Source: Clostridia bacterium (GTDB taxonomy: Bacteria > Bacillota > Clostridia > Oscillospirales > QAKW01). Taken from it: DNA of 64,000 nt. The position numbers were made by a program, and so were the translations under genes. The stretch lies in contig JAGBEI010000028.1 of the NCBI GenBank assembly GCA_017937065.1, positions 1 through 64,000 of the forward strand. The letters are read 5' to 3'. Shown one piece after another: positions 3,130-63,929 of this stretch (positions are counted from its first letter, which is position 1; each line of letters opens with the position of its first letter). The notes beneath the pieces are model-generated. The model saw nothing but the letters and a program-made list of their open reading frames with translations. It ran no database searches and had not been told where the DNA came from.

Positions 3130-3335
3130 CATGTGTTCTCAACCCGCGTATGCCGTCAACCGCATACTTTAATCCCTGCGAAATGTCACAGGTGGGAGTT
3201 CGCCGTCACCCTTCACAGGCTTCCGTATCAGGCAAAAGCCGGTACGGCTTGCTCACAGGGCTTCGAGCATCATTCCCGTATAATTAATGTAGGCTTAAAA
3301 TAAACAGTCAACGCACACCGCAGGCAGTGTGTTTT
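3130..3335 (-). ncRNA. ssrS: 6S RNA (RNA polymerase-binding regulatory RNA)
   Basis: About 205 nt with no plausible ORF, folding into the 6S architecture. The closing stem pairs CCTGC(G)GTGTGC (near 3324-3313) with GCATACGCGGG (3153-3143). A large central bubble follows, and its 3' side carries the small hairpin CCTGTG/CGCAGG, as in firmicute 6S. The apical arm has GGGA/TCCC, CCCT/AGGG and CCGTA/TACGG stems. 6S RNA mimics an open promoter and sequesters sigma-A holoenzyme. It is bounded by its own promoter and terminator. Exact ends are estimated, and the call rests on structure rather than a covariance search. Confidence 0.75.
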
Positions 3336-52234: not shown

Positions 52235-53767
52235 TTATTCCCACTCCACTGTGGCTGGCGGTTTGGAGGTGATGTCGTATACGACTCTACCTATGCCCTT
52301 GATTTCGTTTGTAATTCGGCTGCCTGCTTTTTCAAGTACATCATACGGAATTTTTGCCCATTCGGCAGTCATAAAATCATCTGTTGTAACTGCCCTGAGC
52401 ACAACTGTGTAGCCGTAGGTTCTGAAATCCCCCATAACTCCGACGCTTCTCAGGTCTGTTAAAACCGCAAAATACTGATTTATGCTTTTGTTTAATTCGG
52501 CTTTTTCGATTTCCTGACGGAAAACAGCGTCGGCATCACGCAGCAGCTCTAATTTCTCCTTTGTGATTTGTCCGATTATGCGTACTGCAAGCCCTGGCCC
52601 CGGGAATGGCTGACGCCAGATCAGCTCATGCGGAATTTTTAGCTTTATTCCGGTATTCCTTACCTCATCTTTAAAGAGATCGGCAAGCGGCTCGACAATT
52701 TCCTCAAAGCGAATATTGCTCGGAAGTCCGCCTACATTATGGTGGCTTTTGATAACTGCGGAATCGCCTTTTCCGCTTTCGATAACGTCAGGATAAATTG
52801 TCCCCTGCGCCAGTACATCTATTTTTCCGAGTTTTTGCGCCTCGTCCTCGAACACTCTCACAAATTCTTCGCCGATTATTTTGCGTTTTTGCTCAGGGTC
52901 TGTAATCCCTGCAAGCTTATTCAGAAATCTGTCCTGCGCGTTTACTCTTATCAGATTTATACCCAGCTGTGTGCCGAGAGTTTCCTGTACAAAATCGCCT
53001 TCGCCTTTTCTCAAAAGACCGTGGTCTACAAACACGCAAATCAGATTTTTACCGATTGCCCTGTGCAGCAGAACAGCCGCAACAGAGGAATCTACACCGC
53101 CGGAGAGCGCCAGCAGAACCTTTTTGCCCGCGAGCTTTTCTCTGTACTTTTTTATTGAATTTTCGATGAAATTTTCCGTTTTCCAGTCTGCCTTGCAGCC
53201 GCAGATTGAAAAAATAAAGTTACACAGTATCTGCCTTCCGTAGTCCGTGTGTGTGACCTCCGGATGAAACTGAACTCCGTAAAGCTTCCGGTCGTTGTCG
53301 CAGATTGCCGCACACGGGCATTTTTCCGTGTGTGCAATGACGGAAAACCCGTCGGGCGGTATTTCCACGAGGTCGGTATGACTCATCCAGCAAATGCTTT
53401 CGCGCGCAACTTCCTTAAACAGAATATTATCCTGCGTAAATACGGTAGTCTTTCCGTATTCGCTGCCGTCTTCGGCAGAGCCTATTGTTCCCCCTGCCAT
53501 ATACGCCATGAGCTGCGCGCCGTAGCAAATACCGAGTATCGGTATCCCGGCATCGAGTATTGCAGGGTCATAGTGCGGTGACGCCGTGTCGTAAACGCTG
53601 TTCGGCCCTCCCGTGAAAATAATGCCTTTGTAGCCGTTCTCTTTAATTTCAAGCGGCGTAATTTTGCTGTATGCTTTGATTTCTGCGTATACCTGCTCTG
53701 CACGCACTCTTCTTGCGATAAGCATGCTGTATTGCCCGCCGAAATCCAAAATCAGTATTTTATCCAC
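52235..53767 (-). CDS. guaA: GMP synthase (glutamine-hydrolysing)
   Basis: 510 aa from GTG (AAGAGG upstream). The N-terminal class-I glutaminase has Cys in [11 protein letters not shown] and His/Glu in [11 protein letters not shown]. The ATP pyrophosphatase domain has [15 protein letters not shown], followed by the dimerisation domain ending KPPATVEWE. It converts XMP to GMP using glutamine. Last gene of the glnN-amt-asnB-guaA run, 65 bases after asnB; no strong own promoter is visible in that gap. Confidence 0.97.
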
Positions 53768-53832: not shown

Positions 53833-55416
53833 TTATTTGCCGCTGTCTCCGTAGTTTGCAAGCACGCGCGCGGACGGGTCGTTTACATTGCAGCCCTTCC
53901 ATGTGCGGTTTGGCATCCAGAAATCAACTATCATTTCACCCTGACCGGGATAATACTTTTCAAAAATTTCGCGGTAGAGCAGCGATTCCTTTGTGAACGG
54001 TTGTGCATGAGTGTATTTTTTGCATTTTTCTTCAAATTCTTGGTCTGAATATTGATTTTGAGCATACTCCTTAAGATAGTCTACCATGGAGTGCCCTACC
54101 GCGTCCGAAAAGGCGGCTTTTTCCCGAAAAAGTATTTCGTCGGGGAGATAACCTTTATCCCGGAATGCGCGGCGCAGCAAATACTTTCCCTTGCCGTATT
54201 TGTTCATTTTTATTTCCGGGTCGAGCGACATAACATACTTTACAAAGTCAATATCGCCGAACGGCACCCGTGCCTCAAGAGAGTTTACCGATATGCATCT
54301 GTCGGCACGGAGCACGTCGTACATGTGCAGCTCGCTTATACGCTTTTGCGCTTCCTTCTGAAACTCCTCGGCTGACGGGGCAAAGTCAGTATATTTGTAT
54401 CCGAAAAGCTCGTCTGAAATCTCGCCCGTTAAAATCACGCGGATATCTGTTTTTTCGTGTATTGCCTTGCATACAAGATACATGCCCATGCTCGCGCGAA
54501 CTGTTGTGATGTCAAAGGTGCCGAGCAGACGGATAAGCTCGTCAAGACTTGATATAACTTCCTTAGGCGTCATGTATACTTCAGTGTGGTCGCTGCCTAT
54601 GTAATCCGCAGCCTGCCTTGCGTATTTAAGGTCAATGGCGTCGCCGCTCATGCCGATGGCAAAGGTTTTTATGGGCTTATCCGACTTTCTTGCGGCAATG
54701 GCGCATACAAGTGACGAATCAAGCCCTCCGGACAGGAGAAATCCGACCTTTGCGTCGGCAATGAGACGTTTTTCAACACCGGCTATCAGCTTGTCATGAA
54801 TATTGCGGCAGGCGGTTTCCACATCGTCGCAGCAAATGCTGTCAACTTTTGCAATGTCGCAGTAGCAGATAAATTTGCCGTCCCTGTAATAATGCCCCGG
54901 AGGGAAAGGCATTATTTTTTCTGTTAACCCGACAAGGTTTTTAGGCTCGCTGGCAAATAAAACCGTGCCCCTGTCGTTATAGCCGTAATACAACGGACGG
55001 ATACCGATAGGGTCTCTTGCCGCAATGTATTCGTGTGTCCTGCCGTCGTAGATTATACAGGCAAATTCCGCATCCAGCATAGCAAACATATCCGTATTAT
55101 ATTCGCGGTACATGGGCAGCAGTATTTCACAGTCACTGTCGCTTTTAAAAACGTAGCCCTTTTGTATCAGCATGTCTTTGTACTTTTTGAACCCGTATAT
55201 TTCGCCGTTGCAGACAGCATAGCTGCCGTCAAGCTCAAACGGCTGCATTCCGTCGGACGTGAGACCCATGATAGAAAGCCGATGAAAGCCGAGCAGACCT
55301 TTGCCGGTGTCTATAATCCTGCTGTCATCAGGTCCGCGTGAAATTGTGCGGTCAAAGCCTGTCTTAAAATCTTCCAAATCAGTGCCGCTGCCGCAGCACC
55401 CCATTACAGAACACAT
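53833..55416 (-). CDS. asnB: asparagine synthetase (glutamine-hydrolysing)
   Basis: 527 aa. The N-terminal nucleophile is Cys2 (MCSVMGCCGSG), exposed after Met removal. The glutaminase domain has RGPDDSRII, FHRLSIMG and CNGEIY. The synthetase PP-loop is FLLSGGLDSSLVC. It makes asparagine from aspartate, ATP and glutamine. Member of the nitrogen operon, 34 bases after the Amt-PII gene. Confidence 0.95.
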   Translation of the reverse strand: MCSVMGCCGSGTDLEDFKTGFDRTISRGPDDSRIIDTGKGLLGFHRLSIMGLTSDGMQPFELDGSYAVCNGEIYGFKKYKDMLIQKGYVFKSDSDCEILLPMYREYNTDMFAMLDAEFACIIYDGRTHEYIAARDPIGIRPLYYGYNDRGTVLFASEPKNLVGLTEKIMPFPPGHYYRDGKFICYCDIAKVDSICCDDVETACRNIHDKLIAGVEKRLIADAKVGFLLSGGLDSSLVCAIAARKSDKPIKTFAIGMSGDAIDLKYARQAADYIGSDHTEVYMTPKEVISSLDELIRLLGTFDITTVRASMGMYLVCKAIHEKTDIRVILTGEISDELFGYKYTDFAPSAEEFQKEAQKRISELHMYDVLRADRCISVNSLEARVPFGDIDFVKYVMSLDPEIKMNKYGKGKYLLRRAFRDKGYLPDEILFREKAAFSDAVGHSMVDYLKEYAQNQYSDQEFEEKCKKYTHAQPFTKESLLYREIFEKYYPGQGEMIVDFWMPNRTWKGCNVNDPSARVLANYGDSGK

Positions 55417-55450: not shown

Positions 55451-57163
55451 TTATTCGACGTCCTGCAGGGCATCATAGCCCTCTTCGCCGGTACGGATTT
55501 TGACGACGTTTTCAACGTCGTAGACAAAAATCTTGCCGTCGCCGATATGACCTGTGTAAAGGACACGCTTTGCCGTTTCTATAACGTCACTGACGGGAAC
55601 CTTGCTGACAACGATTTCCACTTGAACTTTAGGCAGCAGATTTGCCTCAACCTGAACGCCGCGGTAGTATTCCGGCTTGCCCTTCTGCATTCCGCAGCCG
55701 AGAACGTGTGAAACCGTCATACCGGTAATTCCGATATGCATCATAGCGGCTTTCAGAGTCTCAAAGCGAGATTCCTTGCAAATAATTTCTACTTTGGTAA
55801 GTTTGGGAGTATTACTGTCGAAGGTCGGCATCTTCTTTACGGGAACCGCTTCGGCAACAGGGACATCTCCCGAAACATTAACGGGTTTATAATCATCCTG
55901 GGCTATGGTATCCGGCAGCATTGCAAAGCCCGCATAAGAGGTGAGCAGACCGTGCTCGGAAACATCAAGTCCTGCAAGCTCATCTTCCTTATCTGCACGC
56001 AGACCTATTGTGTGCTTTAAAATAAGGAACACAACGGTAATTATTGCTGCAACATAGACTGCAACGGATAAAACGCCGAGACACTGTACGCCGAGGAAGT
56101 GTAGACCGCCGCCGTAAAGAAGTCCTTTTTCCGTTGTGACGCCTGTTGCAAAAACGCCCGTAAGTACGGTGCCGAGAGCACCACATACGCCGTGGACGGA
56201 AATCGCACCGACAGGGTCGTCTATTTTTGCGACTTTATCAAAAAACTCGACTGCAAATACAATAACGATACCGCAAATGATTCCTATTGCTGCTGCACCC
56301 ATCGGATTTACCGCATCGCAGCCTGCGGTAATTCCGACAAGTCCCGCAAGCGCTGCGTTGTATGTCATGGAGACATCCGGCTTTTTGTAGCGAATCCATG
56401 TTACTATCAGCGTAGTGCAGCAGGCAAGCGCCGCCGAAAGATTTGTATTAAAGAAAACTCTGCCTGCTGTCTGCATCAGCTCGTCGCTGTCCATTCCGAC
56501 GGTAGATGCGCCGTTGAAGCCGAACCAGCAGAACCAAAGTATGAATACGCCGAGAGCGGCAAAGGTTATGTTGTGCCCCAAAATTGCGCGCGGCTTGCCG
56601 TTTTTATCGTACTTTCCGATACGCGGACCGAGTATTGCAGCGCCTATCATCGCGCATATTCCGCCTACCATATGTACTGCGGTCGAACCCGCAAAATCAT
56701 GGAAGCCGAGCTGACTGAGCCAGCCGCCTCCCCAAATCCAATGCCCGGAAACCGGATAGATTACAAGTGAAATTGCAAGAGAGTAAATGCAGTAAGCGCT
56801 GAATTTTGTTCTTTCTGCCATCGCACCCGAAACTATTGTAGCGGAGGTCGCGCAGAAAACAGTCTGGAAAATCGCAAACGCCCAGAGCGGAACTCCGTCA
56901 GGCAGGATATGACTGTAATCACCCATTATGAACGGGTCTATGGCGCCGAACAGTGCGGTGCCGCTTCCGAACATGAGACCGAAGCCTACAAGCCAGAATG
57001 CAGGCGTGCCTATGCAGAAATCCATAAGGTTTTTCATAAGTATATTACCGGTATTTTTAGCTCTTGTAAAGCCGGCTTCACATAGTGAGAAGCCCGCCTG
57101 CATGAAAAATACGAGTGCGGCGCCTATAAGCACCCAAATTGTGTTGACGGAACTGTAAGTCAT
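55451..57163 (-). CDS. amt: ammonium transporter fused to a C-terminal PII (GlnB) domain
   Basis: 570 aa. Residues 1 to about 405 are an Amt channel with eleven helices (AGFSLCEAGFTRAKN, GGWLSQLGFHDFAGSTAVH and ISVHGVCGALGTVLTG with the conserved His). A linker follows, then residues about 455-565 form a PII domain: KVEIICKESRFETLKAAM, the T-loop GMQKGKPEYYRGVQVEANLL and C-terminal GDGKIFVYDVENVVKIRTGE. The T-loop Tyr51 position is Val, so uridylylation is unlikely. PII fused to Amt should gate ammonium uptake through ATP/ADP and 2-oxoglutarate binding. It lies 20 bases after glnN. Confidence 0.94.
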   Translation of the reverse strand: MTYSSVNTIWVLIGAALVFFMQAGFSLCEAGFTRAKNTGNILMKNLMDFCIGTPAFWLVGFGLMFGSGTALFGAIDPFIMGDYSHILPDGVPLWAFAIFQTVFCATSATIVSGAMAERTKFSAYCIYSLAISLVIYPVSGHWIWGGGWLSQLGFHDFAGSTAVHMVGGICAMIGAAILGPRIGKYDKNGKPRAILGHNITFAALGVFILWFCWFGFNGASTVGMDSDELMQTAGRVFFNTNLSAALACCTTLIVTWIRYKKPDVSMTYNAALAGLVGITAGCDAVNPMGAAAIGIICGIVIVFAVEFFDKVAKIDDPVGAISVHGVCGALGTVLTGVFATGVTTEKGLLYGGGLHFLGVQCLGVLSVAVYVAAIITVVFLILKHTIGLRADKEDELAGLDVSEHGLLTSYAGFAMLPDTIAQDDYKPVNVSGDVPVAEAVPVKKMPTFDSNTPKLTKVEIICKESRFETLKAAMMHIGITGMTVSHVLGCGMQKGKPEYYRGVQVEANLLPKVQVEIVVSKVPVSDVIETAKRVLYTGHIGDGKIFVYDVENVVKIRTGEEGYDALQDVE

Positions 57164-57183: not shown

Positions 57184-59280
57184 TTATTTTACACCGAATA
57201 AAAGGTCGCCGTAGGTAGGAAACGGCCAATAGCTTTTTGCGGTCAGTGTCTCAGCTTCATCGCAGGGAATTCTCAGCTCACTCATTTTTTCAAGGACGGT
57301 ATCGCGGATCATCTCTGACTCTTCGCCGATATCCTTGGCGTTGTGAAGTACAATGAGGGCGTTTTCAAGCTCTTCGGCTTTTGCTGCTATCCTGTCTGTT
57401 AATGCAGAAAGCTTTCTGACAAGACCTTTTTCAAAGCTGCATGCAAGAGTGTCGTCCAGCTCCTTTTTGGCAAAGGCGGATTTGGCAACGCTTGCGGCAT
57501 ACGCTTCAACAGCGGGGATAATCTGAGTTTTTGCCATTGAAGTCATCGTATTGGCTTCTATGATGACTGTCTTGCAGTAGTTTTCCAGTGTGATCTCGTA
57601 ACGCGACCTGATTTCCGCCTCGGAAAATACCCCGTGTGAGGTCAGCATATCCACGTTCTTTTTGTCGAGTATGTGTGGAATGGCGTCGGGCGTGGTGCGC
57701 AGATTCATAAGCCCGCGCTTTTCCGTTGCCTCCTTGATCCAGCTGTCGTCATATCCGTTGCCGTTAAAGATGATGTGCTTGTGATCCCTGATGGTTTTTC
57801 TTATCATCTCGTGAAGCGTCTTTTCAAAGTTTTCTGCACCCTCTAAGCGGTCTGCATAAATTTTCAGGCTTTCGGCAACCGCCGTGTTGAGCATAATGTT
57901 TGCGCAGGCTATGCTGTTTGAAGAGCCTAACATGCGGAATTCAAATTTGTTACCGGTAAAGGCAAAGGGAGAGGTTCTGTTGCGGTCGGTAGTGTCGCGG
58001 TTGAATTTTGGCAAAACGTCAACGCCCAGCTTCATTTGCGTCTTCTCAATGCCCTTGTACGGTGTGTCGGTTTCGATTGCCTCTAAAACTGCGTTCAGCT
58101 CGTCGCCTAAGAAAACCGAGACAACGGCGGGCGGCGCCTCGTTTGCACCCAGACGGTGGTCGTTGCCGGCTGTTGCAACAGATATTCTGAGTAAATCCTG
58201 ATAGTCGTCTACCGCCTTGATTACCGCGCACAAAAACAGCAGAAACTGCGCATTTTCATAAGGTGTTTCGCCCGGCGACAGCAGGTTCTGTCCGCTGTCT
58301 GTTGCAATAGACCAGTTGTTGTGCTTGCCGCTGCCGTTTACTCCGGCAAAGGGCTTTTCATGCAGCAGACAGACAAGTCCGTGCTTGGCGGCGACCTTCT
58401 GCATTATCTCCATTGTCAGCTGATTGTGGTCGGTGGCAATATTCGTTGTGGTGTATATGGGAGCAAGCTCGTGCTGTGCGGGCGCGACTTCGTTGTGCTC
58501 CGTCTTTGCCAGAATTCCCAGCTTCCAAAGCTCATTGTTCAGTTCTTCCATAAATGCTGCCACTCTTGGTTTTATAACACCGAAATAGTGGTCGTCCATC
58601 TCCTGACCCTTGGGCGGCTTTGCGCCGAACAGAGTGCGTCCCGTAAACCTGAGATCCGGGCGCTGTTCATACATTTCTTCGGGTATCAGGAAGTATTCCT
58701 GTTCGGGACCGACGGAGGAGCGGACGCATTTTGCGCTGTTGTTTCCGAACAGTCTGAGTATGCGCAGCGCCTGTTTGTTAAGTGCTTCCATAGAGCGCAG
58801 AAGCGGTGTCTTTTTGTCCAGGGCATGACCGCCGTAAGAGCAGAACGCAGTGGGAATGCACAGCGTCTTTCCCTTTATAAAAGCATACGAAGTAGGATCC
58901 CACGCGGTATATCCTCTTGCTTCAAAGGTGGCTCTCAGACCTCCGCTGGGGAAGGAGGAGGCATCCGGCTCGCCCTTTATAAGCTCCTTTCCGGAAAACT
59001 CCATAATAACGCCGCCGTCGGGAGAGGGGGATATAAAGCTGTCGTGCTTTTCGGCGGTTATGCCGGTGAGCGGCTGGAACCAGTGCGTGTAATGTGTCGC
59101 GCCCTTGGCTACCGCCCAGTCTTTTATCGCCGCCGCCACTGCATTGGCAACTCCGATATCGAGTTCTGTTCCCTCGTCTATGGTTTTTTTGAGTGAGGCG
59201 TATACCTTTGCGGACAAGGTCGCTTTCATCACTCTGTCGTCAAAAACCAAACTGCCGAAATAATCCTTTACTGTTTCCAT
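57184..59280 (-). CDS. glnN: glutamine synthetase type III
   Basis: 698 aa, the expected size of GSIII (GlnN), twice that of GlnA-I. N-terminus [19 protein letters not shown]. Signature segments include [52 protein letters not shown] and [18 protein letters not shown]. It fixes ammonium onto glutamate. AAAAGGAG lies 9 bases before the ATG. First gene of the minus-strand nitrogen operon; its leader has a consensus promoter and two terminator-like hairpins. Confidence 0.96.
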
Positions 59281-59327
59281 GATAACAGCTCCTTTTCAAT
59301 TAATATTGTCGGCTTAATAAAGATAAA

Positions 59328-59361
59328 GGCGCCTTTAATGCTAAAATACATTAAAGACGCC
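59328..59361 (-). promoter_or_regulatory. second leader hairpin (attenuator B) of glnN
   Basis: On the minus strand, GGCGTCTTTAATG pairs with CATTAAAGGCGCC around an 8-base loop, followed by TTTATCTTT. The 5' arm is preceded by AAAAGGCAAT and copies the start of hairpin A. The U-tract is moderate. Confidence 0.7.
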
Positions 59362-59384
59362 ATTGCCTTTTATATATTGATGTT

Positions 59385-59422
59385 AAAAAAATAACGTCTT
59401 TGAGTACCTGCACTCAAAGACG
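59385..59422 (-). terminator. first leader terminator (attenuator A) of glnN
   Basis: On the minus strand, CGTCTTTGAGT/ACTCAAAGACG with the 6-base loop GCAGGT, followed by TTATTTTTTT. It begins about 15 bases after the predicted start site, so most transcripts would stop unless antitermination occurs. Confidence 0.8.
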
Positions 59423-59442
59423 CCTTTGCCTTTATGGTTTGC

Positions 59443-59471
59443 ATTATACAACTCCGGAAATCATTTGTCAA
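59443..59471 (-). promoter_or_regulatory. glnN operon promoter
   Basis: On the minus strand, TTGACA (59471-59466), 17 bases, TATAAT (59448-59443): a perfect consensus sigma-A promoter, 163 bases before the glnN ATG. Confidence 0.92.
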
Positions 59472-59504
59472 CCCCTTTTTTACAACTTTTTTTGATTTTT
59501 GTAC

Positions 59505-59533
59505 TTGACAATTTGCGACGACAGGCGTATAAT
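59505..59533 (+). promoter_or_regulatory. glutamate synthase operon promoter
   Basis: TTGACA (59505-59510), 17 bases, TATAAT (59528-59533): perfect consensus, divergent from the glnN promoter, with 33 bases between the two -35 boxes. Confidence 0.92.
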
Positions 59534-59548
59534 ATCTCAAAAATGAGC

Positions 59549-59606
59549 AAAGGCGTTCATTTGGTCAGGATTTTTTCTGTGCCCAAATGAGCGCTTTTTA
59601 TTTTTT
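59549..59606 (+). terminator. leader terminator (attenuator) of the glutamate synthase operon
   Basis: A 16-bp stem pairs AAAGGCGTTCATTTGG (59549-59564) with CCAAATGAGCGCTTTT (59583-59598), including three G-U pairs. The loop contains an inner CAGGA/TTCTG stem. Strong T-tract TTTTTATTTTTT. It starts about 10 bases after the predicted start site and ends 28 bases before the first gene, so it must be bypassed for expression. Confidence 0.85.
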
Positions 59607-59634
59607 GTATTTTTCGGAAAGGAAACAAACCGAT

Positions 59635-60732
59635 ATGAAAATCGAGGGTCAGGTACGAATTCCGTCGGGCTGTGCGATTGCCGCTGTCATTTCCAAAGAC
59701 GGCAGGAGAATGTCAGGCGAGGGAATATACAACGCTATGAAGCCGATGCACGACCGTTCCAACGGACTGGGCGGCGGCTTTGCCGGATACGGCATTTATC
59801 CCGAATATAAGGATTTTTATGCGCTTCATATGTTTTTTAATGAGCGCGCTACGAGAAAGAACTGTGAGGCTTTTCTGAAAGAACGTTTTGAAATAGTTAA
59901 ATCTGAAATAATCCCTACGCGCAAAATTCCGCAGATTACCGACGAGCCGATAATCTGGCGGTATTTTGTCGCGCCCCTTAATTCCGTTCTTTTAGCTTTA
60001 CAGCTTGATGAAAAGGAATTTGTAGCCAAAACCGTTATGAAAATCAATACCGAAATGGACGGAGCGTACGTCTTTTCCAGCGGAAAAAACATGGGGACGT
60101 TCAAGGCGGTCGGCTTTCCGGAGGATGTCGGTGTATTTTATAAGCTGGAGCAGTATGAGGGATATTCCTGGACGGCGCACGGCAGGTATCCGACAAATAC
60201 TCCCGGCTGGTGGGGAGGCGCGCATCCCTTTACTTTACTGGATTACTCTGTCGTACATAATGGTGAGATTTCTTCTTATGATGCTAACCGCCGCTTTATC
60301 GAAATGTTCGGATATAAATGCAATCTCCAAACCGATACCGAAGTTATCACTTATATATTCGATTATCTTCTCCGCGTAAAGGGTCTCAAATTGGAAGAAG
60401 CGGCAAATGTGGTGGCAGCCCCGTTTTGGTCTACTATAGAATCTATGGAAGACAAAAAGGAACGTGATAAGCTTACATTTCTCAGAACTGCCTTCTCAAG
60501 TATGCTTATAACAGGTCCGTTTTCTATTATACTGGGATTTTCCGGCGGGCTTATGGCGCTTAATGACAGACTGAAGCTGCGTTCGATGGTCGTAGGCGAA
60601 AAGGATGACAGGGTATTTATAGCAAGTGAAGAATCCGCAATTCGTATGATAGAGCCCGATGCGGAAAATATATACGCTCCCACCGGTGGAGAGCCTGTAA
60701 TAATCAGAACTAAGGATGGTGATGAGTTTTGA
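59635..60732 (+). CDS. glutamate synthase glutaminase subunit (class II amidotransferase, split GOGAT)
   Basis: 365 aa from the ATG at 59635 (GGAAAGG upstream; the in-frame 59587 ATG lies in the leader terminator). Class-II glutaminase (Ntn) domain: the probable nucleophile Cys13 in RIPSGCAIAAVISKDG needs removal of a 12-residue propeptide. YSWTAHGRYPTNTPGWWGGAHPF, VVHNGEIS and LQTDTEVI match the GOGAT glutaminase. It supplies ammonia to the FMN subunit encoded next. The stop overlaps the next gene. Confidence 0.87.
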   Translation: MKIEGQVRIPSGCAIAAVISKDGRRMSGEGIYNAMKPMHDRSNGLGGGFAGYGIYPEYKDFYALHMFFNERATRKNCEAFLKERFEIVKSEIIPTRKIPQITDEPIIWRYFVAPLNSVLLALQLDEKEFVAKTVMKINTEMDGAYVFSSGKNMGTFKAVGFPEDVGVFYKLEQYEGYSWTAHGRYPTNTPGWWGGAHPFTLLDYSVVHNGEISSYDANRRFIEMFGYKCNLQTDTEVITYIFDYLLRVKGLKLEEAANVVAAPFWSTIESMEDKKERDKLTFLRTAFSSMLITGPFSIILGFSGGLMALNDRLKLRSMVVGEKDDRVFIASEESAIRMIEPDAENIYAPTGGEPVIIRTKDGDEF

Positions 60733-62234
60733 GTATAGAATTTATATATCCGGAGTTTGAGGTTATAAGGAATGACAACCGATGCATAGCTTGTCGCGTA
60801 TGTGAAAGGCAGTGCGCAAATGAGGTGCATTATTTAGATGCCGACAGCGGGCTTATGATGAGCGATGAGACAAAATGTGTGAACTGTCAGCGTTGTGTGT
60901 CGCTTTGTCCTACCAGAGCATTGAAGATAGTGAAGAGCGGTTGTGAGTTAAGAGAGAATGCCAACTGGCAAAACGATACGATAAAGGAAATATACAAGCA
61001 GGCAAACAGCGGCGGAGTTTTACTCTCCTCAATGGGAAATCCAAAGCCCCTGCCCGTTTATTGGGATAAAATACTTATCAATGCCTCCCAGGTTACAAAC
61101 CCGCCGATTGATCCTCTGCGCGAGCCTATGGAAACACGCGTTTTTCTCGGAAAAAAGCCCGATACTGTAAAACGCGATGAAAACGGAAATATTAAGTGTT
61201 CCCTTACGCCGCAGCTTGAGCTTTCGATGCCGATAATGTTTTCGGCAATGAGCTACGGGTCGATAAGCTATAATGCTCATGCTTCTTTGGCACGTGCCGC
61301 AACTGAACTGGGAATTCTTTACAATACCGGAGAGGGAGGCTTGCACGAAGATTTCTATTGTTATGGAAAAAATACAATTGTTCAGGTTGCATCGGGACGT
61401 TTCGGCGTTTACAAGGATTATCTTGAAGCAGGTGCGGCGGTAGAAATAAAAATGGGGCAAGGTGCAAAACCCGGGATAGGGGGACATTTGCCCGGCTCTA
61501 AAATTGTAGGGGATGTTTCAAGGACAAGAATGATACCGGAAGGCTCGGACGCCATTTCTCCCGCTCCGCATCACGATATTTATTCTATTGAGGATCTGCG
61601 GCAGTTGGTATTTTCTCTTAAAGAGGCTACCGAATACAAAAAGCCTGTAATAGTTAAGGTCGCCGCAGTACATAACATTGCCGCAATAGCAAGCGGAATT
61701 GCGCGCAGCGGCGCCGATATTATAGCTATTGATGGATTTCGCGGCGGCACGGGAGCTGCTCCGACAAGAATACGGGACAATGTGGGAATCCCGGTAGAAT
61801 TGGCACTGGCTGCAGTAGACCAAAGGCTTCGCGATGATGGAATAAGAAATAATGTTTCGCTTGTGGTAGGCGGCAGTATTCGTTCTGCGGCGGATGTCGT
61901 AAAAGCAATAGCCTTGGGTGCAGATGCCTGCTATATTGCAACCGCAGCGCTTTTGGCATTGGGCTGTCATCTTTGCCGTACCTGTCAAAGCGGCAAATGC
62001 AACTGGGGCATTGCAACTCAGCGCCCTGAACTTGTAAAAAGACTTAATCCCGATATCGGAAGTGAGCGGCTTGTAAATTTAATGAACGCATGGCGTCATG
62101 AAATAAAAGAGCTTATGGGCGGCATGGGCATAAACTCCATAGAGTCCCTTAAAGGAAATAGGCTTATGCTGCGCGGAATAGGACTTACCGAAAAAGAAAT
62201 GGATATTCTCGGTATCTCTCACGCAGGTGAATAA
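60729..62234 (+). CDS. glutamate synthase FMN-binding subunit with N-terminal ferredoxin domain
   Basis: 501 aa from TTG at 60729, overlapping the glutaminase stop. N-terminal [4Fe-4S] pair CIACRVCERQC and CVNCQRCVSLCP, then the GOGAT central/FMN barrel: MFSAMSYGSISYNAH, NTGEGGLHEDF, KMGQGAKPGIGGHLPG, AIDGFRGGTGAAPT and CHLCRTCQSGKCNWGIATQ (3Fe-4S-type Cys cluster). It condenses 2-oxoglutarate and ammonia to glutamate. This corresponds to the archaeal-type split large subunit. Confidence 0.93.
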   Translation: MSIEFIYPEFEVIRNDNRCIACRVCERQCANEVHYLDADSGLMMSDETKCVNCQRCVSLCPTRALKIVKSGCELRENANWQNDTIKEIYKQANSGGVLLSSMGNPKPLPVYWDKILINASQVTNPPIDPLREPMETRVFLGKKPDTVKRDENGNIKCSLTPQLELSMPIMFSAMSYGSISYNAHASLARAATELGILYNTGEGGLHEDFYCYGKNTIVQVASGRFGVYKDYLEAGAAVEIKMGQGAKPGIGGHLPGSKIVGDVSRTRMIPEGSDAISPAPHHDIYSIEDLRQLVFSLKEATEYKKPVIVKVAAVHNIAAIASGIARSGADIIAIDGFRGGTGAAPTRIRDNVGIPVELALAAVDQRLRDDGIRNNVSLVVGGSIRSAADVVKAIALGADACYIATAALLALGCHLCRTCQSGKCNWGIATQRPELVKRLNPDIGSERLVNLMNAWRHEIKELMGGMGINSIESLKGNRLMLRGIGLTEKEMDILGISHAGE

Positions 62235-62247
62235 AGGCGGTGACAAA

Positions 62248-62676
62248 ATGAAAAGAGTATATGTTAATGAGGATTGGTGTATCGGCTGCCATCTTTGCGA
62301 ATATAACTGTGCGTTTGCAAATTCGGGAGCGAAAGATATGGCAAAAGCTCTGAAGGGAAAACCGATATATCCCAGAATTCATGTTGAAGGTGATGACAGA
62401 ATAACTTACGCTGTTTCCTGCCGTCACTGCGTAGATCCTATTTGTGTTAAAAGCTGTATTGCAGGAGCGATTTCCGTAAAAGACGGCATTGTCAAAATTG
62501 ACGAAAATAAATGTGTAGGCTGTCTTACCTGTGTATTGGTGTGTCCTTACGGATCATTGGCACCGGGGGAAAACGGAACAATGCAAAAATGTGAATTATG
62601 TACGCAGAACTCATTCGGAGAGCCGGCATGCGTCAAGGGATGTCCGAACAGAGCCATTGTTTTTGAAGAAAGGTGA
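62248..62676 (+). CDS. polyferredoxin electron-transfer subunit of the split glutamate synthase
   Basis: 142 aa from the ATG at 62248 (AAGGCGG 7 bases upstream; GTG 62227 is an alternative). Cys motifs for about four [4Fe-4S] clusters: CIGCHLCEYNC, CRHCVDPICVKSC, CVGCLTCVLVCP, and CELC with CVKGCP. HycB/NapG-like. It likely passes electrons from the adjacent FAD protein or from ferredoxin to the FMN subunit. Confidence 0.88.
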   Translation: MKRVYVNEDWCIGCHLCEYNCAFANSGAKDMAKALKGKPIYPRIHVEGDDRITYAVSCRHCVDPICVKSCIAGAISVKDGIVKIDENKCVGCLTCVLVCPYGSLAPGENGTMQKCELCTQNSFGEPACVKGCPNRAIVFEER

Positions 62677-62681
62677 TATGA

Positions 62682-63929
62682 ATGACCAATTATGTGATAA
62701 TAGGAAACGGAGTTGCGGCAGCAGGCTGCATAGAGGGAATCCGAGCTGCTGATACCAAAGGTAAAATCACGGTGATTTCAGAGGAAAACACACCTGTTTA
62801 TTGCAGACCGCTTATATCTTATTATCTTGAAGGAAAAACAGATCTTGAACGAATGAAATACAGAGACGATAGTTTTTATCAGGATATGAAATGTGAGGTT
62901 TTATACAACGTAAAAGCCGAAAAAATCGATAAGGAAGCCAAAACAGTCATTCTCAGCAACGGCAAAACAGTCAGTTATGATAAGCTTTGTGTTGCAACCG
63001 GCTCTTCACCTTTTATACCACCTTTTAAAGGTTTGGAAACAGTCGAAAAGAAGTTTTCTTTTTTAACGCTTAATGATGCTCTGTCATTGGAAAAAGCGAT
63101 AAACAAAAATTCGCGTGTACTGATAGTAGGTGCAGGCCTTATCGGACTTAAATGTGCCGAAGGCTTGCATGACAGAACGGCTGAAATTATCGTTTGTGAC
63201 CTTGCGGACAGAATACTTTCGAGTATACTTGACAGAGAATGCGCCGCTATTGTTCAGTCTCATTTGGAGGAAAACGGAATTAAATTCAAATTAAACGACA
63301 GTGTAGTTGAGTTTAATAAAAATATTGCCGTTATGAAAAGCGGTGTTAAAATAGAGTTTGATGTTCTTGTCTTGGCAGTGGGAGTAAAACCGAATTCTTA
63401 TTTAATTAAGGATATAGGCGGAAAAGTCAATCGCGGAATTGTAGTTGATAATTCAATGAGAACCGATTTAAAGGATATTTATGCGGTCGGTGACTGTACA
63501 GAAAGCGAAGATATTTCCGGCGGTATAAAACGTGTAATGGCACTCATGCCTAATGCTTATATGCAGGGTAAGTGTGCCGGCATGAACATGGGCGGAAAAC
63601 CGGAAATATTCGATAAAGCAATACCTATGAATTCTATCGGATTTTTCGGACTGCATGTAATGACGGCGGGAAGCTATTTCGATTCGGATAACGGAGGCAC
63701 AGTATATCAGGAAAAAAACAAAGATAAGGTGAAACGGTTTTATACCAAAGACGGACTGCTGACCGGATTTATTCTTGTGCGTGATACCGATCGCGCCGGA
63801 ATATACACCTCGATTATAAGAGAGAAAACTCCTCTTTCATCATTAAATTTTGAAATGTTGCAAAAAGTTTCAAGCACTGCTGCATATTCTAAAGAAAATC
63901 GTAGAAAAAAATTTGGAGGTGTGGTATAA
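62682..63929 (+). CDS. NAD(P)/FAD-dependent oxidoreductase (glutamate synthase electron donor)
   Basis: 415 aa. FAD motif YVIIGNGVAAAGCIEGIRAAD, second dinucleotide motif RVLIVGAGLIGLKCAEGLHD, and the FAD-end motif IYAVGDCTES. Resembles nitrite/ferredoxin-reductase-type flavoproteins (NirB/rubredoxin reductase group). In this operon it probably oxidises NAD(P)H for glutamate synthesis; no catalytic Cys pair is present. AAAGGTG precedes the ATG. Confidence 0.9.
   Translation: MTNYVIIGNGVAAAGCIEGIRAADTKGKITVISEENTPVYCRPLISYYLEGKTDLERMKYRDDSFYQDMKCEVLYNVKAEKIDKEAKTVILSNGKTVSYDKLCVATGSSPFIPPFKGLETVEKKFSFLTLNDALSLEKAINKNSRVLIVGAGLIGLKCAEGLHDRTAEIIVCDLADRILSSILDRECAAIVQSHLEENGIKFKLNDSVVEFNKNIAVMKSGVKIEFDVLVLAVGVKPNSYLIKDIGGKVNRGIVVDNSMRTDLKDIYAVGDCTESEDISGGIKRVMALMPNAYMQGKCAGMNMGGKPEIFDKAIPMNSIGFFGLHVMTAGSYFDSDNGGTVYQEKNKDKVKRFYTKDGLLTGFILVRDTDRAGIYTSIIREKTPLSSLNFEMLQKVSSTAAYSKENRRKKFGGVV

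Follow-up and report, generated by a model that had tools for sequence, protein, structure and literature searches.

The target hexaloops of ANTAR proteins are recognised by an A1/G4 signature (PMC3369931). In known antitermination sites two hexaloop hairpins, P1 and P2, are joined by a short linker (PMC3369931, PMC8934654). Antitermination by EutV requires both hexaloops of a leader and their spacing (PMC3369931, PMC8934654), and in EutV Tyr164 stacks on G4. The ANTAR dimer has been argued to touch one hexaloop at a time, and the role of single loops was left open, such a role being expected at sites whose timing is not set by a transcribing polymerase (Walshe 2022; PMC8934654). In nitrogen metabolism, NitR of Clostridium saccharobutylicum is described as inducing the GS/GOGAT genes by antitermination upon nitrogen limitation (PMC6316151), in a report that includes antisense RNA control (Stutz 2007, via PMC6316151). 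The gene for an ANTAR regulator also adjoins the GS-GOGAT genes in a cluster of C. thermocellum (PMC4676874). The search models and mechanisms published for ANTAR antitermination in the open-licence literature presuppose two hexaloops.

The locus analysed here lies in a 64,000-nucleotide stretch of the genome of a gut-type Clostridia bacterium (the window), in which positions 59281-59634 separate a glnN operon on the minus strand from a divergent glt operon on the plus strand, both devoted to glutamine/glutamate synthesis. Sequence comparisons make it highly probable that both leaders are target sites of a NitR-type ANTAR antiterminator, whose gene closes the glt-glnA operon. The genes are as follows.

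57184..59280, minus strand: glnN, type III glutamine synthetase, first gene of its operon (Pfam GSIII_N, 2.7e-79, and Gln-synt_C-ter)
55451..57163, minus strand: ammonium transporter fused to a P-II domain (TIGR00836 on the first 406 amino acids; P-II models at 456-565)
53833..55416, minus strand: asnB, glutamine-dependent asparagine synthase (NF006949, above cut-off)
52235..53767, minus strand: guaA, GMP synthase (NF000848, above cut-off)
59635..60732, plus strand: glutamate synthase glutaminase domain protein, first gene of the glt operon (Pfam GATase_2, 2.6e-11)
60729..62234, plus strand: glutamate synthase FMN domain with ferredoxin domain (Pfam Glu_synthase, 3e-139)
62227..62676, plus strand: 4Fe-4S electron-transfer protein
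62682..63929, plus strand: pyridine nucleotide-disulphide oxidoreductase
about C23:63850-64653, past the window end, plus strand: GXGXG-type glutamate synthase domain, assigned by reading
C23:64675-65886, past the window end, plus strand: glnA
C23:65917-66501, past the window end, plus strand: ANTAR protein, 3' of glnA, at the end of the glt-glnA operon

The last gene of the glnN operon is probably guaA. The C-terminal P-II (GlnK-like) domain of the transporter (55451-57163, minus strand) could serve the system as a sensor of nitrogen status. The genome also encodes a second type III glutamine synthetase (G000:C3:97107-99185, plus strand) with 57% identity to GlnN of the window.

Each operon is preceded by a perfect promoter, as originally predicted, and no other site between 57 and 64 kb scores above 10/12. 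Transcription starts are placed solely from promoter consensus. Both transcripts then run into intrinsic terminators.

59443..59471, minus strand (read from 59471 to 59443): glnN promoter, TTGACA-17-TATAAT, 12/12 consensus
59505..59533, plus strand: glt promoter, TTGACA-17-TATAAT, 12/12 consensus
59383..59424, minus strand: intrinsic terminator A with T-tract (hairpin 59424-59393), overlapping the 3' strand of mini-hairpin A (below)
59319..59361, minus strand: intrinsic terminator B with a weaker T-tract (hairpin 59361-59328)
59551..59607, plus strand: intrinsic terminator of the glt leader with T-tract (hairpin at about 59551-59596)

Relative to dinucleotide shuffles, the folding z-scores are -4.4 (A), -5.8 (B), and -5.0 (glt), and none of 200 shuffles was equally stable for any of the three. 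The terminators had been placed 10-15 nt past the start, which holds for A and glt but not for B, situated ∼65 nt further on. The CAGG reported in the terminator loops of A and glt is present here but is not conserved in relatives, so its sharing is most likely due to chance; for the same reason, a role of this motif as a second binding site was ruled out.

The element common to the three terminators, GCAANGGCGTY, was found as it had been written. Read as RNA, it forms the upper part of a mini-hairpin distinct from the terminator, one such mini-hairpin sitting at each terminator's 5' base.

59416..59433, minus strand: ANTAR mini-hairpin A, AAAGGC[AAAGGC]GTCTTT, hexaloop 59427-59422 (covariance-model match, 7.7e-11; covariation)
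59353..59370, minus strand: ANTAR mini-hairpin B, AAAGGC[AATGGC]GTCTTT, hexaloop 59364-59359 (covariance-model match, 2.4e-13)
59541..59562, plus strand: glt ANTAR mini-hairpin, AAATGAGC[AAAGGC]GTTCATTT, hexaloop 59549-59554 (sequence, glt leaders, and covariation)

The core of the glt mini-hairpin is ATGAGC[AAAGGC]GTTCAT. All three hexaloops have the form AANGGC, with A1 and G4. The original prediction had stated that the loops show no clear A1/G4 hexaloop; this is incorrect, and the hexaloop was overlooked because only the terminator loops had been examined. As in ANTAR P2 hairpins, the 3' strand of each mini-hairpin is the first part of the terminator 5' arm, and since this strand is common to both structures, the mini-hairpin and the terminator are mutually exclusive. 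The 11-mer alone is nothing special: the genome contains GCAAAGGCGTY 12 times and its reversed control 9 times, a similar frequency. The distinctive feature is a hexaloop hairpin overlapping a terminator. A genome search with covariance model R1 gave nothing convincing beyond A and B; R1 is blind to the glt type because the stem and terminator differ there, and its opposite-strand matches at 59318-59433 were not counted because terminator hairpins A and B are near-palindromic. Nor was an R1 match reported in the leader of the second glutamine synthetase (G000:C3:97107-99185).

The hairpins are conserved in relatives, as the original prediction required. In 105 glnN leaders (genome loci and named contigs that overlap in the genomes they represent, so that not all are independent) we found 144 terminator-overlapping hexaloop hairpins, 118 of which have A1/G4, two of these being shifted duplicates. 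Shuffling the leaders in five rounds yielded a total of 15 such hairpins, two of them A1/G4. At least one element is present in 85 of the 105 leaders. All but one of 30 glt leaders score, and inspection by eye shows GAAC[AAAGGG]GTTC in the remaining one. More distant glnN leaders show a third stem type, ACAGC[AAAGGC]GCTGT, and TCAAAAC[AAAGGC]GTTTTGA is present in a single leader. Carriers include [Ruminococcus] torques, Neglectibacter timonensis, Merdimmobilis hominis, Mediterraneibacter agrestimuris, and a metagenome-assembled genome labelled Enterocloster bolteae. In one further region (L192, G008:C43:20198-26158), five element matches lie within 6 kb on the glnN strand, one of them directly 5' of glnN with no promoter seen; this arrangement suggests attenuators within one operon, as in eut.

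An inverted repeat at +1 could also be read as a DNA operator bound by a DNA-binding nitrogen regulator, given its position right at the start site and its nearly invariant core. The pattern of substitution argues instead for RNA. In 44 mini-hairpins picked for variety, a few of them near-duplicates, A1 and G4 are invariant and the 6-bp stem is paired in 92% of cells; the covariation score is 0.649, against 0.287 with shuffled partners and at most 0.162 when the partners are slid. Stem changes are thus compensatory as the sequence drifts, the same loop is carried on three unrelated stems (AAAGGC/GTCTTT, ATGAGC/GTTCAT, and ACAGC/GCTGT), and the 3' strand is held in common with the terminator. 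We regard an operator as very unlikely.

The ANTAR target sites proposed here differ from described ones in that only one hexaloop is found per terminator. A scan for a P1-like hairpin 5' of the element (stems of at least 4 bp, linkers of 0-16 nt) returned one for three of the 118 glnN elements, against a background of 8.6%, and two of the three fall in the -10 box. The hexaloop begins 14-17 nt past the -10 box in 58 of the 64 first glnN elements that have a recognised promoter (at least 10/12); in the glt leaders (n = 29) the distance is mostly 13-16 nt, and by eye it is similar for the third stem type. Because transcription should start about 7 nt past the -10 box, the stem would begin at about +2 to +4, and this spacing leaves no room for a transcribed P1. 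The single-loop arrangement covers about 116 glnN elements, 30 glt leaders, and nine leaders of further stem types. A similar scan does find P1 in the eut leader L258 (eutS-eutP-eutV-eutW), where ACAC[AAAGTA]GTGT is separated by 9 nt from AAGC[AAAGGG]GCTT, and likewise in the leader that precedes an amt-linked ANTAR gene from the same class. Three extra 20-kb regions near other ANTAR genes (L219-L221) gave no dual sites by the criteria used, and the positive controls for P1 are therefore limited to two loci, L258 and L271.

Could these nonetheless be ordinary dual-hexaloop sites with an overlooked loop, either with A and B serving as P1 and P2 or with P1 transcribed from an unseen upstream start? 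Two or more hexaloops do occur in 30 of the 85 element-bearing glnN leaders, but the other 55 have one, as do all glt leaders. Where A and B coexist, their loops are 49-186 nt apart (bar the two shifted duplicates) with a hairpin between them, whereas longer linkers abolish or strongly reduce EutV action (PMC3369931, PMC8934654), and P1 does not rise above background. We consider this explanation unlikely. The sequences argue that the locus is an ANTAR-controlled GS/GOGAT system, of a known kind, in a single-hexaloop variant; we found no description of this variant in the open-licence literature, to which the search extended. The suggestion that the mechanism may differ from that of known ANTAR targets thus survives on other grounds: P1 is absent, but the hexaloop, whose supposed lack had prompted the suggestion, is present. 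Under the EutV model a single loop should not suffice, because both loops are reported to be necessary, and the single-loop sites here stand at terminators, in contrast to the expectation of Walshe 2022. A longer stem, made as the first RNA, might take over the recruitment that has been proposed for P1.

The candidate regulator is encoded nearby. A single ANTAR protein is encoded in the genome; its gene is oriented like the glt operon and is linked to glnA and glutamate synthase genes, the linkage by which we recognise the NitR type. Across relatives, glnA lies directly 5' of the ANTAR open reading frame in 59 of 67 cases, and the ANTAR gene is near glnN, nearly always on the opposite strand, in 34 of the 46 loci with enough upstream flank. 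Strong R1 matches (E of about 1e-5 or better) occur in 31 of 99 relatives, 30 of which have an ANTAR gene, compared with 60 of the 99 overall (Fisher 1e-7, with shared descent ignored). A wider covariance-model search of clostridial genomes, of the kind called for in the original prediction, gave the same picture: at 1e-4, R1 finds the element in 43 of 391 genomes of the class, and 42 of the 43 have an ANTAR gene, compared with 196 of 391 overall (Fisher 1e-12, shared descent again ignored). In two sets of 20 genomes representing more distant glnN copies, the element is present in the glnN leaders of none of the ANTAR-minus genomes and nine of the ANTAR-plus genomes. Two draft assemblies (G090 and G140) have strong element matches and no detected ANTAR gene, possibly owing to a missing contig or loss of the regulator. 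The sole ANTAR protein in the same cluster and this co-occurrence support the earlier proposal that constitutive promoters and default termination are paired with an ANTAR-type trans-acting antiterminator.

The other option raised there, a metabolite-sensing RNA (a riboswitch for glutamine or 2-oxoglutarate) acting on the terminator with no protein involved, would suit the gene set and the default termination. It finds no support in an Rfam search at gathering score, which returned from the window only 6S RNA and two tRNAs, with no riboswitch or glnA RNA match. The invariant part of the element comprises the 6-nt loop and its closing pair only, and the presence of the element follows that of the ANTAR gene. 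We consider this explanation very unlikely. The 6S RNA (3137-3329, minus strand) scores 71.8 bits, far above the gathering score.

The ANTAR protein aligns with Rv1626 and EutV over most of its length and with AmiR in part. The RNA-contact residues K149, E160, and M172 of EutV are each retained in at least 66 of 67 relatives. EutV Tyr164 is replaced by His, as in AmiR, and EutV R142 by Ile, two differences that count against the ANTAR-target reading. A Pfam search of the protein gave no Response_reg (receiver) domain match. The phosphorylatable Asp of the receiver is Asn in this protein and in 55 of the 67 aligned ANTAR proteins; because of this replacement a phosphorelay is improbable, and control is probably exerted by a partner or ligand. 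Partner control by analogy to AmiR/AmiC would be a natural guess, for which the glutamine synthetase encoded just 5' is the first candidate by gene order alone.

For the ANTAR-controlled system, the following sequence of events can be proposed. RNA polymerase would start a few bases ahead of a 5-8 bp mini-hairpin with the hexaloop AANGGC. In simulated folding of the nascent chain, the mini-hairpin (-3.5 to -6.8 kcal/mol) forms ahead of the terminator (-19 to -27 kcal/mol), with a predicted interval of about 20 nt before the terminator displaces the mini-hairpin. When nitrogen is limiting, the active ANTAR protein, probably a dimer, would bind the single hexaloop and lock the mini-hairpin, thereby breaking the lower terminator stem; termination should then fail, because the upper part that remains is separated from the U-tract. 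Read-through would follow into glnN-amt-asnB-guaA and into glt-glnA-antar, and since the regulator sits in its own target operon, a positive feedback loop is expected. On the glnN side, A and B may act as two successive checkpoints. Both the ANTAR-bound antitermination step and the nitrogen signal are what we infer. More tentatively, and as less likely than not, one may envisage a widespread clostridial class of ANTAR sites at +1 for which a single hexaloop suffices in antitermination, served by a phosphorylation-dead ANTAR protein. Nitrogen status would gate this protein, with glutamine synthetase or another partner as intermediary, in a positive feedback loop.

Single-loop sites that are conserved on genes of central nitrogen metabolism in many Clostridia of gut and rumen would escape dual-loop searches. 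They make the single-hexaloop question left by Walshe 2022 testable and provide a natural setting in which to ask whether P1 serves for recruitment and can be dispensed with where the hairpin is transcribed first.

The system resembles that of NitR in its ANTAR protein, its GS/GOGAT genes, its antitermination, and its occurrence in Clostridia (NitR as described in PMC6316151). With AmiR of Pseudomonas aeruginosa it shares a pseudo-receiver ANTAR protein with His at the Tyr164 position; unlike here, the amiE leader is reported to have a dual hexaloop (PMC3369931), and AmiR is held by AmiC, whereas the candidate partner here is glutamine synthetase. Like the EutV-controlled eut leaders, the leaders described here have an A1/G4 hexaloop, a P2 that overlaps an intrinsic terminator, and a C-G closing pair (as in the L258 eut site). 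They differ in that only the P2-like hairpin is found, placed directly at +1 on a stem of 5-8 bp, and EutV, unlike the protein encoded here, has a phosphorylatable receiver and Tyr164.
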